NCBI RefSeq assembly: GCF_003003075.1 | Contig: NZ_PVTX01000005.1 | Span: 1-64,000 of the forward strand | Direction: 5' to 3' | DNA: 64,000 nucleotides | Source: Isoptericola halotolerans | Lineage (GTDB): Bacteria > Actinomycetota > Actinomycetes > Actinomycetales > Cellulomonadaceae | Shown here: positions 23,699-30,007 of the stretch, piece after piece | Numbering within the stretch: position 1 is the first letter of the stretch | Layout: each line of letters begins with the position of its first letter | The notes under the pieces: generated by a model | Databases searched by the model: none | Seen by the model: the letters and a program-made list of their open reading frames with translations, nothing else | What the model was told of the DNA's origin: nothing | Program-made: the position numbers and the translations under genes

Positions 23699-23730
23699 GA
23701 AGGGCCCGGACCGACTGGTCCGGGCCCTTC
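23699..23730 (+). terminator. Intrinsic terminator of rhlE
   Basis: A perfect 14-bp stem (23699-23712 and 23717-23730) has a 4-nt loop (gact). It stands 53 bp after the rhlE stop and isolates rhlE from the downstream transporter operon. Confidence 0.85.
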
Positions 23731-23767: not shown

Positions 23768-23826
23768 TGTTACTTATACGTGTTACATCTAGACGTGCAT
23801 GGCCAGCCTATGTAACTTGCGTTACA
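23768..23826 (+). promoter_or_regulatory. TGTTAC-box operator/promoter region of the ABC-M20-S51 operon
   Basis: This is an unusually AT-rich island upstream of the binding-protein gene. TGTTAC occurs at 23768-23773 and 23781-23786 (13-bp repeat distance). The inverted pair TGTAAC-TTGC-GTTACA lies at 23811-23826, a perfect 6-bp inverted repeat with 4-bp spacer. Four copies in 59 bp suggest an operator for a dimeric repressor. A -10-like hexamer may lie in TTATAC/TATACG between the first two copies. The regulator is not identified; the RpiR gene at the operon end is a candidate. Confidence 0.5.
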
Positions 23827-23855: not shown

Positions 23856-24818
23856 ATGCACAGCACTCCCCCCGCCCGCCGCACGATCGCCGCCGTAGCG
23901 GTGGCCCTCACCGCCCTGACCGCCGGCTGCTCGACCGCCGCCACGACGGCGGAACCCGCGGCAGGGACCACCACCCCCGAGGCCCGCGAGGTGGTCGGCG
24001 TCGAGATCGCCGTCGACCCGGAGGCCCGGGCACTGGTGCCCGAGACCTTCCTCGACAGCGGAACCGTCCGGGTCGCGACCGACGTGCCGTACCCGCCGTT
24101 CGAGATGTACGAGGACGAGGGCTCCGACGTGATCACCGGTCTCGACTACGACCTCGGCCAGGCGATCGGCGCCGTGCTGGGCCTGGAGTTCGCCTTCGAG
24201 GCGCAGAAGTTCGACGGCATCATCCCGGCGATCCAGGCCGGCAAGTACGACATCACCATCTCGGCGATGACGGACACGGTCGAGCGCCAGGGTGCGCTGA
24301 CGTTCGTCGACTACTCCGCGTCCGGCACCGGGATGCTCGTCGCGGACGGCAACCCGGAGGGCATCGAGACCTACACCGACCTGTGCGGGCTGCCCGTCGG
24401 GGTCCAGAGCGGGACCCAGCAGGTCGACCTCGTCGAGAGCTGGGCGGCCGAGTGCGAGGACCTGGGTGCGGAGCCCGTCGACCTCAAGCAGTACCCCAAG
24501 GACTCCGACGCCCAGCTCGCCATCAGCAGCGGCGCCGTCGTGGCGTCGCTCCTCACGAAGCCGGCCGCGGGCTACGTCGCCAAGACCGCCGGCGACGGCG
24601 CCACGTTCGACAGCATCGACGACCCGGCGGCACCCAACGGCTACGGCGCCACCCCCAACGGCATCGGGGTGTCCAACACGACGCCCGAGCTGGCCGAGGC
24701 GATCCAGGTCGCGCTGCAGTCCCTCATCGACGACGGCACCTACGAGGTGATCCTCGACAAGTACGGCCTCACCGGCATCGCCGTCGACGAGGCCACCATC
24801 AACGGCGCCGAGTCCTGA
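23856..24818 (+). CDS. Amino-acid/peptide ABC transporter, substrate-binding lipoprotein (family 3)
   Basis: A 320-residue lipoprotein. The signal peptide (residues 1-24) ends in lipobox LTAGC with lipidated Cys25. An Ala/Thr-rich linker runs to about 55. A family 3 (PBPb-type) binding domain follows: TVRVATDVPYPPFEMY, GLDYDLGQAIGAVLG, KYDITISAMTDTVERQG and VQSGTQQVDLV. It resembles polar or charged amino-acid binders, but the ligand cannot be fixed. It is the first gene of a tightly packed operon: the stop is one base before the permease ATG. Expression is presumably controlled by the TGTTAC repeats upstream. Confidence 0.88.
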   Translation: MHSTPPARRTIAAVAVALTALTAGCSTAATTAEPAAGTTTPEAREVVGVEIAVDPEARALVPETFLDSGTVRVATDVPYPPFEMYEDEGSDVITGLDYDLGQAIGAVLGLEFAFEAQKFDGIIPAIQAGKYDITISAMTDTVERQGALTFVDYSASGTGMLVADGNPEGIETYTDLCGLPVGVQSGTQQVDLVESWAAECEDLGAEPVDLKQYPKDSDAQLAISSGAVVASLLTKPAAGYVAKTAGDGATFDSIDDPAAPNGYGATPNGIGVSNTTPELAEAIQVALQSLIDDGTYEVILDKYGLTGIAVDEATINGAES

Positions 24819-24819
24819 C

Positions 24820-25755
24820 ATGAGCTCGACCATGACCCCTGCTCCCGGCGTCACGGCCGACCCGGCCGACCCGGCCCTGCCCGTCGTCCCCCTGCGGCAC
24901 CGCGGGCGCTTCGTCGCCGGGCTGATCGTGCTCGTCCTGACCGCCTCGTTCCTCGTGAACGTCGCCGGCAACCCGAACCTGGACTGGCCGACCGTCGGCG
25001 AGTACCTGTTCGCACCCCTGACGTTCCGCGGGCTCGTCGTGACCCTCTGGCTCACCTTCGCCGGCATGGCGATCGGGATCGTCGGCGGCGTCGTCGTCGC
25101 CGTCATGCGGCTGTCCGCCAACCCGGTGCTGCGCACCGTCGCCGGGCTCTACGTGTGGGTCTTCCGGGGCACGCCGATCCTCATCCAGATCATCTTCTGG
25201 GGCTTCCTCGGTGCGTTCGTCCCCACGATCACCCTCGGCATCCCGTTCACCGACGTCGTGCTGTACTCGGCACAGACCTCGACCCTGATCCCGGCCACCG
25301 TCGCGGCGCTGCTGGCGCTCGGGCTCAACGAGATCGCCTACGGCTCCGAGATCGTCCGGGCCGGCATCCAGGCGGTCGACCACGGCCAGACCGAGGCGGC
25401 GAAGTCGCTCGGCATGACCCCCGCGCAGACCCTGCGCAGGGTCGTCCTGCCGCAGGCCATGCGGGTCATCGTCCCGCCCATGGGCAACGAGACCCTCACC
25501 ATGCTCAAGACCACCGCGCTCGTGTCGGTGATCGCGGGGCAGGACCTGCTGTCCAACCTGCAGGCCGTCTACGCCCAGAACTTCAAGGTGATCCCCCTGC
25601 TGATCGTGGCGAGCATCTGGTTCCTCGTCCTGACGACCCTGTTCACCATCCCCCAGCGCCGGCTCGAGCAGCGGTTCGGTCGTGGCGTCGCAGGCAGCGC
25701 GGTGGCCCGGCGACCCTTCGCCCGTGCCCTCGAGACCTGGAAGGCCCGCCGATGA
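24820..25755 (+). CDS. Amino-acid/peptide ABC transporter permease (HisMQ type)
   Basis: A 311-residue inner-membrane permease. Membrane segments are visible near residues 28-46, 72-95, 108-130 and 160-180 and in the C-terminal third. Two diagnostic motifs are [10 protein letters not shown], the HisM/GlnP signature, and the cytoplasmic EAA loop [22 protein letters not shown], which docks with the ATPase. The N-terminus is about 27 residues longer than that of simple GlnP proteins and is Pro-rich. One permease gene serves the system, so it should form a homodimer. It overlaps the ATPase gene by 4 bases (ATGA). Confidence 0.9.
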
Positions 25756-26528
25756 GCTCCGCACCCCCCGCCCCGGTCATCGACGCCCGTGGCGTCACCA
25801 AGTCCTTCGGCACCAACACCGTGCTGCGGGGCATCGACCTCGAGGTCCACCCGGGCCAGGTCGTCTGCCTGCTCGGACCGTCGGGCTCCGGGAAGTCGAC
25901 GTTCCTGCGCTGCGTCAACCACCTGGAGCGCATCGACGGCGGCCGCCTGCTCGTGGACGGCCAGGACGTCGGCTACGAGCTGCGCCACGGCAAGCTCTAC
26001 GAGCTGACCGAGCGCAGGATCGCCCGTCGGCGCGCCGAGATCGGCATGGTCTTCCAGCGGTTCAACCTGTTCCCGCACCGGACGGCTCTGGAGAACGTCG
26101 TCGAGGGGCCCGTCGTGGTCCGTCGGCGCTCCCGCGCCCAGGTGCTCGAGCGAGGGCGCGAGCTCCTCGACCGGGTGGGACTCGCCGACCGCGCCTCCGC
26201 CTACCCGTCGCAGCTGTCCGGCGGTCAGCAGCAGCGGGTGGCCATCGCCCGCGCGCTCGCCATGGAACCGCGGCTGCTGCTGTTCGACGAGCCGACCTCG
26301 GCCCTGGACCCCGAGCTCGTCGGGGAGGTCCTGGACGTCATGCGCGACCTCGCCCGGGACGGCATGACGATGCTGGTCGTGACGCACGAGGTCGGGTTCG
26401 CCCGCGAGGTCGCCGACGTGGCCGCCTTCATGGCCGACGGCGTCATCGTCGAGACCGGCCCGCCCCGCCAGGTCCTCGACGACCCGCAGCACGAGCGCAC
26501 GCAGTCCTTCCTGGCGAGGGTGCTGTGA
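25752..26528 (+). CDS. Amino-acid/peptide ABC transporter ATP-binding protein (GlnQ type)
   Basis: A 258-residue ATPase. Walker A is GPSGSGKST, the Q-loop is [10 protein letters not shown], the signature is LSGGQQQR, Walker B is [12 protein letters not shown], and the H-loop is [14 protein letters not shown]. This is the polar amino-acid (PAAT) subfamily. An insertion [20 protein letters not shown] before the Q-loop resembles that of cystine/opine-type transporters. It is fourth-base coupled on both sides (ATGA with the permease, GTGA with the peptidase gene), so transporter and peptidase are one translational unit. Confidence 0.92.
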
Positions 26529-27763
26529 CGGCGCCCGGCCCTGCCGGCGTCCTCGGCACGGACGACGCCACGGACCTGCTCGGACGCGCCCGGGAGGCCG
26601 CGGAAGGCTTCGTCGCGGACCTCGTCGAGCTCACGTCGTTCGACTCCGGGACGTGGAACCCGGCCGGCACGCGCCGTGCGGCCACGTGGTGCGCCGACCG
26701 CCTCCGGTCGTTCGGGGCCCGCACGGAGATCGTCGAGGTCCACCGCACGGGCCCGCCGGTGGGCCCGGCCCTCGTCGCGCGGCTCCCCGTGCCCGGCCCC
26801 GGGACGGTCCTGCTCGTCGGCCACACGGACACCGTCTACCCCGACGGCACCGCCGCCGCCCGGCCGGCCGTCCGCGACGGGGACCGGCTGAATGGCCCCG
26901 GCGTGAGCGACGACAAGGGCGGCGTGCTCGCCGGCATCCACGCCATGCGTCTGCTGGCCGACCTGCCCGGCCCGCACGACGGCGAGGTCGTCCTGCTGCT
27001 CAGCCCCGACGAGGAGGTGGGGTCGCCCCAGACGGTGAGCCTGCTGACAGCGCTGGCCCGGGAGGCCGACGTCGTCCTCGGGCTGGAGTGCGCCCGGGAG
27101 AACGGCGACCTCGTCCTCGGTCGCAAGGGGGCGTGCGACGTCACGGTGGAGCTCAGGGGGCGGGCTGCGCACGCCGGCATCGAGCCCGAGCGCGGGATCG
27201 ACGCCGCCGCCGCAGCCGCCGCGCTCGTGCTGTCGGTGCGCGACGCCGCCGCCGCACGGCCCGGCGTGACGATCAACGTCGGTGTGCTGCGCGCCGGCAC
27301 CCGGCCCAACGTCGTCGCCGACCGCGCGCGCCTCGAGATCGAGGTGCGGGCGCCGTCGGCCGCCGCCCTCGACGAGGCCCTGCTGGCGGTGGACGACCTG
27401 GTGGACGCGGTGGCCGTCGGCGGCGTCTCCGGGACCACGGAGCGCAGCGGGTCGTGCCCTCCGCTGGAGCCGACGCCGGCGTCCCGCCGCCTCCTCGACC
27501 TCGCCGTGCGCCGTGGCCGCCGGACCGGCCTCGCCGTGGACGGCGCCCTGACCGGAGGGGTGTCCGACGCGAACTTCGCGGCGGCGACCGGCACGCCGAC
27601 CCTCGACGGCCTCGGGCCCGTGGGCGGCGGCGACCACAGCGCCGCCGAGTGGCTCGACGTCGCGACAGCACCCGCACGGATCGCCCTCCTGGCCGGCCTC
27701 GTCCTCGACGCCGGCCGGCTCCTCGCCCCGCAGGAAACGCCCTCACGAAAGGAACACCCATGA
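26525..27763 (+). CDS. M20-family zinc carboxypeptidase (CPG2-like)
   Basis: A 412-residue cytosolic metallopeptidase of the ArgE/DapE/CPG2 clan. Zinc ligands are H100 and D102 in [11 protein letters not shown]130 in GVSDDKGG, the Glu pair in DEEVGS (general base and ligand, about 163-164), and a late His in [30 protein letters not shown] marks the dimerisation domain. The closest pattern is glutamate carboxypeptidase (CPG2), which removes C-terminal acidic residues. The overlap with both neighbours (GTGA, ATGA) implies that it cleaves the imported substrate. There is no signal peptide. Confidence 0.87.
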
Positions 27764-29043
27764 CGACGTCACCACGTGGTGCCCGTCTGGCCGCCCTCCT
27801 CGCGGGCACGGCCGTGGCCGTGCCCCTCCTTCTCGCCGGCCCCGCCGGGGCCACCCAGCCCGAGGCGGGCGACGGCGGCCAGCTGGTCCTCGTCGGCGGC
27901 AGCCTCGCGGACGACAACGCGGAGGTCTACGGCGAGATCGTCGAACGCGCCGGTGGTGCCGACGCCCGGATCGGGATCATCACCGCCGCGGCCGTCCCGG
28001 CGTCCCAGGACCCTGACGCGGGCACCGAGGACGGCAACAACTCGGTCGACAACGGCACCTACTACGCCGACCTCCTCGAGGGCTTCGGTGCCGGGGAGAC
28101 GACCTGGATCCCGCTCGACCTCGACCACCCGGAGGTCGCGCACGACCCGGCCGTCGTGGAGCAGGTCGGCGAGCTCACCGGCTTCTTCTTCGGCGGGGGC
28201 GACCAGTACCGCTACGTGACCCTGATGACGCAGGGCCCCGAGCAGGAGGACACCCCGCTGCTCGCCGCCGTCCGGGACCGCTTCGAGGACGGCGCCGTCG
28301 TCGCGGGGACCTCCGCCGGCATGCAGATCATGGCCGGGGCGAACATGGTCACGGGCGGCGAGAGCTGGGAGGCGCTCGCGAACGGCAGCGCGCCCGGCTA
28401 CTTCGACGACCCCACCGAGCTCGGCTACCTCCCTCGCGGCGGCTTCGGGTTCTTCGCCTCGGGGCTGCTCGACACGCACTTCGGCGCGTGGGGCCGCCAG
28501 GGGCGTGCGATCCGCCTGGCGAGCGACACCGACGAGGAGCGGGTGTTCGGCGTCGACCCGAACACGGCGCTGGTGGTCGACCACGCCGGGACCGACCACG
28601 AGCAGCTCTCCGTCCTCGGCGAGAACGGTGTCAACCTGCTGGACCTGCGGGACGCCCGTCCCCGCATCTCCCGGGGCGAGTGGAGCATCCGCGGCGTGCG
28701 GTGGTCCTGGCTGGCCGACGGCGACCGGTACGACGCCGCACGACGGGACGTCACGCCGTCGGCGGCTGCCCGGGAGCTGCGCCCGACGGTGCGCGGCACG
28801 GACGCGCAGCGCACGGACGTGTTCTCCTCGCTCGCCGGTGACGGCACCGAGTTCGTGCTGTCCGACCTGGCGCGCGCGCTGGCCTCGTCGAAGGACCGCA
28901 GGACGACCGGCACCACGTTCGAGACGGACCCGCGCTTCCAGGTCGGGCTCGTGGAGGGACCGGGGTTCCGCGCCTACACCACCGACGGGTCGCAGGCGTC
29001 GTCCTACGAGTCCCTCCGGGTGTCGGTCCGCGCGACCCGCTGA
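27760..29043 (+). CDS. Secreted cyanophycinase-like serine peptidase (family S51)
   Basis: A 427-residue secreted protein. The signal peptide is about residues 1-31 (basic start, LLAGTAVAVPLLLAG, then AGA-TQ). The S51 core follows: VGGSLADDN (45-53), FFGGGDQ with Gln149, the nucleophile elbow GTSAGM with Ser185, and LLDTHFGAWGRQGR (236-249), which corresponds to the D-x-H-F...R-GR block of cyanophycinases. Cyanophycinase cuts multi-L-arginyl-poly-aspartate into beta-Asp-Arg dipeptides; other S51 members cut Asp dipeptides. An exported enzyme followed by import and a cytosolic M20 peptidase suggests scavenging. The C-terminal 150 residues are less conserved. ATGA overlap with the M20 gene. Confidence 0.82.
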   Translation: MTTSPRGARLAALLAGTAVAVPLLLAGPAGATQPEAGDGGQLVLVGGSLADDNAEVYGEIVERAGGADARIGIITAAAVPASQDPDAGTEDGNNSVDNGTYYADLLEGFGAGETTWIPLDLDHPEVAHDPAVVEQVGELTGFFFGGGDQYRYVTLMTQGPEQEDTPLLAAVRDRFEDGAVVAGTSAGMQIMAGANMVTGGESWEALANGSAPGYFDDPTELGYLPRGGFGFFASGLLDTHFGAWGRQGRAIRLASDTDEERVFGVDPNTALVVDHAGTDHEQLSVLGENGVNLLDLRDARPRISRGEWSIRGVRWSWLADGDRYDAARRDVTPSAAARELRPTVRGTDAQRTDVFSSLAGDGTEFVLSDLARALASSKDRRTTGTTFETDPRFQVGLVEGPGFRAYTTDGSQASSYESLRVSVRATR

Positions 29044-29131
29044 CCGATCCCGGGACGGTGCCGGGTGGCGTGGCGACGGGTCCGCGACCCCTTGCTACGC
29101 TGCCCGGCACCCGCACAGACAGGAGTCCTCG

Positions 29132-30007
29132 GTGGAGACCACCAGCCACCCGCGGTCCGGGTTGGCGGACCGGATCCGGCGCGGCCTCGGCGACTGCACC
29201 CCCGCCGAGCGCAAGGTCGGCCGGGTGCTCCTCTCGGCGTACCCGTCCGCCGGGTTCGAGACGGTCGCCGTGCTCGCGGCGCGGGCCGGCGTGAGCGGAC
29301 CGACCGTCGTCCGGTTCGTCGCCCGGCTCGGGTTCACCGGGTTCCCCGACTTCCAGGCGGCGCTGCGCGCAGACCTCGACGACCGCAGCGCCTCGCCGCT
29401 GGCGCTGTACGAGACGCGCGACGTCGCGGCGACCTCCGGGACGGAGGACGCGCTGGCGCGGTACGCGCCGGCTGCCGTCCGGGCGGTCCAGCACACCTTC
29501 GACCGGCTGCCGCCGAGCGACGTCGCACGCACCGTCGAGCTCCTCGCCCACGAGGGCCGCCGCGTGCTGGTGGTCGGCGGGCGGTTCAGCCGGCTCCTCG
29601 GCCTCTACCTGGTGCAGCACCTGCAGCAGATGCGGCCCGACGTCGAGTTCGTGTCCGACCGGCCCGAGTGGCGGGCCAACGCCTTCACCGACCTCCACCA
29701 CCGCGACGTGCTGGTGGTCTTCGACTACCGGCGGTACGAGCAGGAGTCGCTCACGCTCGCCCAGTTCGCCGCCGACCGGAAGGCCTCGATCGTCCTCTTC
29801 ACGGACGCCTGGCTCTCACCGGTCGCGTCGCTGGCCGACGCGGTCCTGCCCAGCGACACGGGGTCGTCCTCGCCCTACGACACGATGGCTCCCGCGATGG
29901 CCGTGGTCGAGGCGGTCGTGTCGGGGGTGCTCACCGCGCGCGGCCCGGACGCCCACCACCGCATGGAGCAGATCGAGGCGACCGGGACCTCGCTCGGGAT
30001 CCTCTGA
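29132..30007 (+). CDS. MurR/RpiR-family transcriptional regulator
   Basis: A 291-residue regulator. The N-terminal HTH of the RpiR type is at about 10-75 (TPAERKVGRVLL, VLAARAGVSGPTVVRFVARLGF). A C-terminal SIS domain starts near 140 (RRVLVVGGRFSRLLGLYLVQHL, DVLVVFDYRRYEQESLTLAQFA). RpiR proteins sense phosphorylated sugars or other small ligands through the SIS fold. The GTG start has AGGAG (29121-29125). It follows the S51 gene by 88 bp on the same strand, so it may regulate that operon, although it has room for its own promoter (TACGCT near 29095). Confidence 0.88.
   Translation: METTSHPRSGLADRIRRGLGDCTPAERKVGRVLLSAYPSAGFETVAVLAARAGVSGPTVVRFVARLGFTGFPDFQAALRADLDDRSASPLALYETRDVAATSGTEDALARYAPAAVRAVQHTFDRLPPSDVARTVELLAHEGRRVLVVGGRFSRLLGLYLVQHLQQMRPDVEFVSDRPEWRANAFTDLHHRDVLVVFDYRRYEQESLTLAQFAADRKASIVLFTDAWLSPVASLADAVLPSDTGSSSPYDTMAPAMAVVEAVVSGVLTARGPDAHHRMEQIEATGTSLGIL

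Follow-up and report, generated by a model that had tools for sequence, protein, structure and literature searches.

The 64,000-nucleotide stretch analysed here (the window; Isoptericola halotolerans, contig NZ_PVTX01000005.1, positions 1 to 64,000, from a genome of 3.85 Mb in 22 contigs) carries six consecutive genes that very probably act as one functional scavenging unit, composed of a PAAT-type ATP-binding cassette (ABC) importer, a cytosolic metallopeptidase of family M20, a secreted peptidase of family S51 and an RpiR-family regulator. In the proposed mechanism, the secreted S51 peptidase would trim an extracellular isopeptide polymer rich in aspartate, the likeliest candidate being cyanophycin or something close to it, and yield beta-aspartyl dipeptides; the lipoprotein substrate-binding protein (SBP) would grip such a dipeptide by its C-terminal residue, the nitrogen being acylated, and the importer would take it in; the M20 enzyme would split it into two amino acids, at the step of IadA, IaaA or an M14-type hydrolase; and RpiR would regulate the operon through repeated upstream GTTAC/GTAAC sites. 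Cyanophycin, or a polymer very like it, is a plausible substrate, with our judgement close to evenly divided. The six genes are the following (window coordinates):

23856..24818, + strand: PAAT-type lipoprotein SBP (SBP_bac_3); the carboxylate Arg is kept (R144) and T234 occupies the alpha-amino Asp column
24820..25755, + strand: PAAT-type ABC permease (BPD_transp_1)
25752..26528, + strand: PAAT-type ABC ATPase (ABC_tran)
26525..27763, + strand: cytosolic M20 metallopeptidase, carboxypeptidase-G2-like, with a GTG start; the metal ligands are kept and the Arg324 column of carboxypeptidase G2 (CPG2) holds Cys
27760..29043, + strand: secreted S51 peptidase, cyanophycinase-like, with a signal peptide visible in the sequence; Ser185 and His240 are kept, Pro267 stands at the triad Glu position and Trp244 at the Arg178 position
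29132..30007, + strand: RpiR-family regulator (HTH_6 and SIS), with a GTG start

These genes are closely packed: start and stop codons overlap by 4 bp at three junctions (permease/ATPase, ATPase/M20 and M20/S51), the SBP and permease genes are 1 bp apart, and 88 bp separate the S51 gene from the RpiR gene. An earlier note on this DNA had described five overlapping or abutting importer, M20 and S51 genes with RpiR downstream, and the coordinates and family matches agree with that description. Its family assignments stand for the SBP (SBP_bac_3, 103.9 bits), the permease (BPD_transp_1, 78.5), the ATPase (ABC_tran, 121), the M20 enzyme (Peptidase_M20, 83.8, and M20_dimer, 60.6) and the regulator (SIS, 61.4, and HTH_6, 44.2), all of which exceed their Pfam cut-offs, whereas the S51 protein falls below both curated cut-offs. 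The importer has the features of the PAAT family, namely an SBP_bac_3 SBP, a HEQRo-type permease and a PAAT ATPase, and the S51 motifs that the note had quoted were all recovered, at residues 145-149 (GGGDQ), 183-188 (GTSAGM) and 238-249 (DTHF...GRQGR).

In the window's family, three of 221 genomes carry the S51 gene, each of them from one and the same genus, and the M20 gene was found in these three as well and in no other. Among 396 genomes sampled across the phylum, S51 was detected in the window's own genome alone among the matches scored (at most four first-look candidates per genome, so that distant copies may be missed), while a scan of genome contigs returned a single relative, which is the nearest named one, in Isoptericola sediminis (L005; 72% identity). 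A copy that is 54% identical lies within the same gene set on a plasmid of Kitasatospora fiedleri (Streptomycetaceae; L006) and, used as a query, it gave matches in 39 of the 394 genomes of a second family, taken as Streptomycetaceae because the same K. fiedleri plasmid stretch recurs among its genomes. The six window proteins were mapped on each of 42 loci (L005, L007, the plasmid locus L006 and 39 stretches, L048-L086); L008, the same stretch as L005, was dropped from alignments and counts. All six genes occur in the same order and on one strand in 32 of the 42 loci, in both Isoptericola and Streptomycetaceae, which makes a chance arrangement unlikely. Elsewhere, RpiR is on the opposite strand (four loci; in L077 it lies several kb off) or ahead of the SBP gene (one locus), the internal S51 is lacking and a divergently oriented one is present (two loci), or a contig end intervenes, with one locus cut at its start and two showing S51 and RpiR only. 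Specifically, L079 and L080 stop at contig ends, with SBP to M20 found at the contig ends L104 and L103, and L082 begins within the ATPase gene; genes missing in this way were not scored as losses. In I. sediminis the operon occupies the same site as in the window (helicase, operon, small open reading frame, MarC), and these flanking genes have no match within the 16-kb stretch L007, which suggests that the third copy is located at another place in the genome that carries it. One genome (G788) carries two copies of the operon (L059 and L086), and the S51 gene of L059 is reported to contain one internal TGA.

The M20 gene was found in 51 genomes of the second family, which include all 39 S51-positive ones, both searches having presumably covered the same 394 genomes. 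In 10 of the 12 genomes with M20 and no detectable S51 (E up to 1e-25; L091-L102), the SBP, permease, ATPase and M20 genes are kept close together, the ATPase of L097 being in pieces, and two (L091 and L101) show M20 and RpiR only. On an M20 tree (59 sequences, quick method), the label "no S51" needs seven changes, at least three of them forced by well-supported branches. Because of these changes and of the ten genomes in which it is kept with no S51 found, the importer and the M20 enzyme form a constant core, while the secreted S51 comes and goes; the persistence of this core suggests that the imported pieces, too, are what stays constant.

The DNA upstream of the operon contains repeated short sites, which in the window are the following:

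23811..23826: perfect palindrome TGTAACTTGCGTTACA, composed of one GTAAC and one GTTAC half-site
23769..23773 and 23782..23786: two more GTTAC half-sites, the second beginning 39 bp ahead of the one at 23821

When TGTAAYNNNNGTTACA was sought with at most one mismatch, the only fit in the whole genome was at 23811-23826. The comparison was extended to 40 upstream regions, from loci that have SBP and M20 on the same strand, and GTTAC/GTAAC was found in all 40, with a few regions holding one copy only. It occurs 119 times in 17,470 upstream bases against 241 times in 665,937 bases when the loci are taken whole, upstream regions included. Since upstream DNA is less GC-rich (0.661), composition-matched words were compared: GTTAC/GTAAC ranks at the top of 60 such word classes (median 16), and the next, CGTTA/TAACG, with 90 occurrences, overlaps it. 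Moreover, two copies lie exactly 39 bp apart in 17 of the 40 regions and 38 bp apart in one more. The simple reading is that of a local switch in which RpiR would act by binding to these sites. A promoter scan found no sigma-70-like promoter. Further upstream, between a DEAD-box helicase gene and the operon, lies a GC-rich hairpin with a perfect 11-bp stem and no T run (23702-23727).

The best curated match of the window's S51 is cyanophycinase. In an alignment of 50 S51 sequences (hits of 150 bits or less, which are fragments in L053, were left out), the catalytic Ser of the GXSXG motif and the His, S185 and H240 in the window, are kept in all 50, and by comparison with CphB and CphE (residues as given in the part of PMC3235067 consulted) the residues present throughout are Gln101, Ser132, Asp172, His174, Arg180 and Arg183, with Thr at the position of Gln173, as in CphE. 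The window's protein retains four of the six published residues of the substrate site, shares this Thr and has Trp244 at the position of Arg178; the spacing from the His to the triad acid is 27 in CphB, CphE and the window. Across the three Isoptericola loci, the ratio of nonsynonymous to synonymous differences (pN/pS) is 0.40-0.47 for S51 and 0.43-0.45 for M20, and this similarity argues that the Isoptericola S51 is not decaying. A divergently oriented S51 with CphE-type residues stands in nine loci of the second family (L006, L048, L050, L055-L058, L084 and L085), some with a second SBP, as a parallel module beside the operon. An AlphaFold2 model of S51, built from two sequences (window and L005), reached a mean predicted local distance difference test score of 37.4 and was not used.

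The SBP points to the kind of ligand that would be imported. In PAAT binding proteins such as LAO and HisJ, an Asp binds the free alpha-amino group of the ligand. The corresponding column in the window is T234 (L233-T234). Thr is the residue at this place in 39 of the 40 operon SBPs, and nine of the 11 other SBPs encoded near the loci have Asp there (one has Asn and one is not covered). In total, 10 of 51 SBPs carry Asp in this column, nine being second SBPs outside the operon and one (L060) an operon SBP; among reference SBPs, AncQR, AncCDT-1 and one GlnP domain have it in the column, and the other GlnP domain has it one column earlier. The absence of the alpha-amino Asp from 39 of 40 operon SBPs suggests an N-acylated ligand, for example a beta-dipeptide, with the caveat that 33 of 51 SBPs have Asp three residues before (column 231, where the window has Ser). 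All 51 SBPs retain the carboxylate Arg (R144). These patterns fit a ligand with a carboxylate and an acylated nitrogen, as would be the case for beta-Asp-Arg gripped by its Arg end. A strict pairing of S51 type with SBP type was considered and is ruled out by L083, in which an Arg178-type S51 accompanies a Thr-type operon SBP.

The M20 enzyme retains the two-metal ligands and the catalytic Glu (H100, D129, E163, E164, E188 and H371, assigned by CPG2 numbering), which are present in 55 of 55 sequences. Its closest solved structure is CPG2 (PDB 1cg2), with which it shares the domain layout, the metal ligands and the His, Asn and Arg of the lid domain (H216, N262 and R275). It differs from CPG2 in the Lys208 and Arg324 columns, the former being Asp in 55 of 55, in an R-E-N-G-D stretch after the metal Glu (R191-E192-N193-G194-D195) and in an Asp before the last metal His (D370), the last two features being invariant in the 55 sequences. 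E188 is the Glu that, as described in the part of PMC6271292 consulted, marks acylase/carboxypeptidase rather than aminopeptidase/dipeptidase specificity among metal ligands. A basic side chain in the substrate would go well with the shift towards acidic residues, and the SBP and M20 patterns together are compatible with N-acyl amino acids, beta-Asp-Arg among them, without singling it out. In the window genome, IaaA gave no match, the IadA profile gave nothing convincing (23.1 bits, the cut-off being 331.25), and PF04952, the M14 type, gave no match in what is a weak test (a 76-position model that gave a hit in one of 14 controls). M20 is the best candidate found for splitting beta-dipeptides, if these are made here, and, given a cyanophycin-type polymer, it would likely be the enzyme of this step. 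In Pantoea, an M20 relative adjoins a gene for a YfcC-family transporter (L107).

Several observations weigh against the proposed mechanism. The window's S51 scores 20.1 bits against 23.9 for Pfam S51 and 105.8 against 126.6 for the cyanophycinase model TIGR02069, and all nine relatives tested are below the latter cut-off as well (84.5 to 119.3 bits). Only 11 of the 50 S51 sequences have Arg178, while 27 have Tyr in its place and all three Isoptericola copies have Trp. The triad Glu (CphE Glu251 and CphB Glu201, the latter counted on the structure alignment) is Glu in 47 of the 50 and Pro in the same three Isoptericola copies, Pro267 in the window. Judged by these residues, the window's S51 is no textbook cyanophycinase. 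S51 triads are described as varying in their acid in the parts of PMC9239234 and PMC11078827 consulted. In M20, the Arg324 column (C311 in the window) is Cys in 52 of 55 sequences and Trp in three, and Arg or Lys in four of four outgroup sequences. The equivalent Arg of relatives sits near the C terminus of the substrate, according to the part of PMC6271292 consulted, and with that Arg gone a plain CPG2-like grip on a C-terminal carboxylate becomes less likely. The ten genomes with importer and M20 and no S51 found also count against the mechanism. The lack of IaaA from 42 of 42 carriers, which speaks in its favour, may be a group trait, the search having covered carriers alone. Lastly, CphA gave no match over the cut-off in the window genome (nine partial matches, the best at 55.1 against 850 bits), and any cyanophycin must therefore come from other organisms. 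The path drawn in the earlier note thus holds up for the order of secreted S51, importer and cytosolic M20, whose gene set is strongly conserved, and is weakened for cyanophycin as the polymer, given an S51 below the equivalog cut-off and devoid of Arg178 and Glu201, both described as important for such enzymes.

Alternatively, the operon S51 may have drifted from cyanophycinase towards a different isopeptide or N-acylated polymer (polyaspartate, poly-gamma-glutamate, an altered cyanophycin or a peptide natural product), to whose product the SBP and M20 would be matched, a possibility that we take seriously while holding it short of probable. It would account for the replacement of Arg178 in 39 of the 50 S51 sequences and for the Thr that follows DTH in 36, as well as for the scores of four second-family operon S51s (84.5-90.2 bits against 108.1-118.9 for three Arg178-bearing ones), for the nine loci with a divergent CphE-type S51 (the sole S51 in L084 and L085) and for the alpha-amino Asp that second SBPs mostly keep (9 of 11) and operon SBPs do not. 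However, the 11 Arg178-bearing proteins are not confined to the seven second S51s of two-S51 loci: in L082 and L083 the S51 within the operon has the full set of CphE-type residues, and in L084 and L085 the sole, divergent S51 is of this type, with none inside. Moreover, most residues of the substrate site are invariant among the 50 sequences, and the Isoptericola copies, which lack Arg178, score 105.8-119.3 bits, about equal to the Arg178 group.

It is unlikely, in our view, that the core is an importer, M20 and RpiR serving ambient small N-acyl amino acids or beta-dipeptides, with an S51 that is dispensable and may be inactive in the window's genus. The ten genomes without S51, the seven changes on the M20 tree and the Pro at the triad position in Isoptericola favour this explanation, but the Isoptericola S51 is under purifying selection like M20 and keeps its Ser and His. 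Scavenging of folate or p-aminobenzoyl-glutamate by a CPG2-type enzyme, which the nearest solved structure brings to mind, is very improbable, as the CPG2 Lys208 and Arg324 columns (placed on the alignment with CPG2) hold Asp in all 55 sequences and Cys in 52 of them, respectively, the M20 protein scores 251.9 bits against the glutamate carboxypeptidase cut-off of 349, and an S51 peptidase has no role in such a pathway. Cyanophycin or a near variant remains the preferred polymer.

In actinomycetes, the M20 enzyme that accompanies a cyanophycinase-like gene offers a candidate, open to direct testing, for one more type of isoaspartyl dipeptidase, and the part of PMC10206079 consulted reports many genomes with cyanophycin genes and no known isoaspartyl dipeptidase, those of Firmicutes and Bacteroidota being undiscovered. 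The operon is also a case of a secreted enzyme that is gained and lost while uptake stays, and one branch of its S51 evolves under purifying selection with another residue in place of the catalytic acid. In its fullest form, the picture would be that of a fourth kind of beta-aspartyl dipeptidase (an M20, unlike IadA, IaaA and M14) feeding on cyanophycin-type polymers in actinomycetes, with an importer for N-acylated dipeptides and an S51 that is a shared good, dropped by several lineages and with a rebuilt catalytic triad in Isoptericola; we regard this whole as doubtful. No report of a PAAT-importer and M20 layout with cyanophycin in Actinobacteria was found in the titles and abstract openings of the open-licence papers listed, nor one of cyanophycinase together with RpiR in the open-licence literature, where absence is weak evidence.

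Among known systems, the S51 is most readily compared with CphE, the extracellular cyanophycinase of Pseudomonas alcaligenes and P. anguilliseptica (PMC3235067, in the part consulted). It is likewise secreted and about 420 aa long, has the Ser, the His, the Thr before the His, the Gln, the Asp and two of the three site Arg residues, and places the His at the same distance from the Arg residues and from the acid position; it differs by a Trp for the first Arg, a Pro for the catalytic Glu and a score below the curated cut-off. An M14-type cyanophycin dipeptide hydrolase fills some of the gaps in dipeptide cleavage (Sharon 2023, as reported in the part of PMC10206079 consulted). The M20 enzyme would perform the same step and belongs to an unrelated family. 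The M14-type enzyme is presumably the CphZ of PMC12661447. In a Gram-negative cyanophycin locus on a plasmid of Pseudoalteromonas sp. THAF3 (L111), an arginase-family gene, iadA, yfcC, a TonB receptor gene and a cyanophycinase gene stand together. The cyanophycin utilisation locus, as outlined in the same part of PMC10206079 (citing Ben Hania 2017), combines a cyanophycinase with IadA or IaaA and a transporter. The operon resembles it in placing a cyanophycinase-like enzyme beside a candidate dipeptide-splitting enzyme and an in-cluster transporter, in a genome without CphA over the cut-off, and differs in having M20 in place of the IadA, IaaA or M14 partner, a PAAT importer, RpiR and an S51 with altered active-site residues. 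The locus is classed as a variant of cyanophycin utilisation because it would work alike and departs from it in the equivalog score, the catalytic Glu and the dipeptidase partner.

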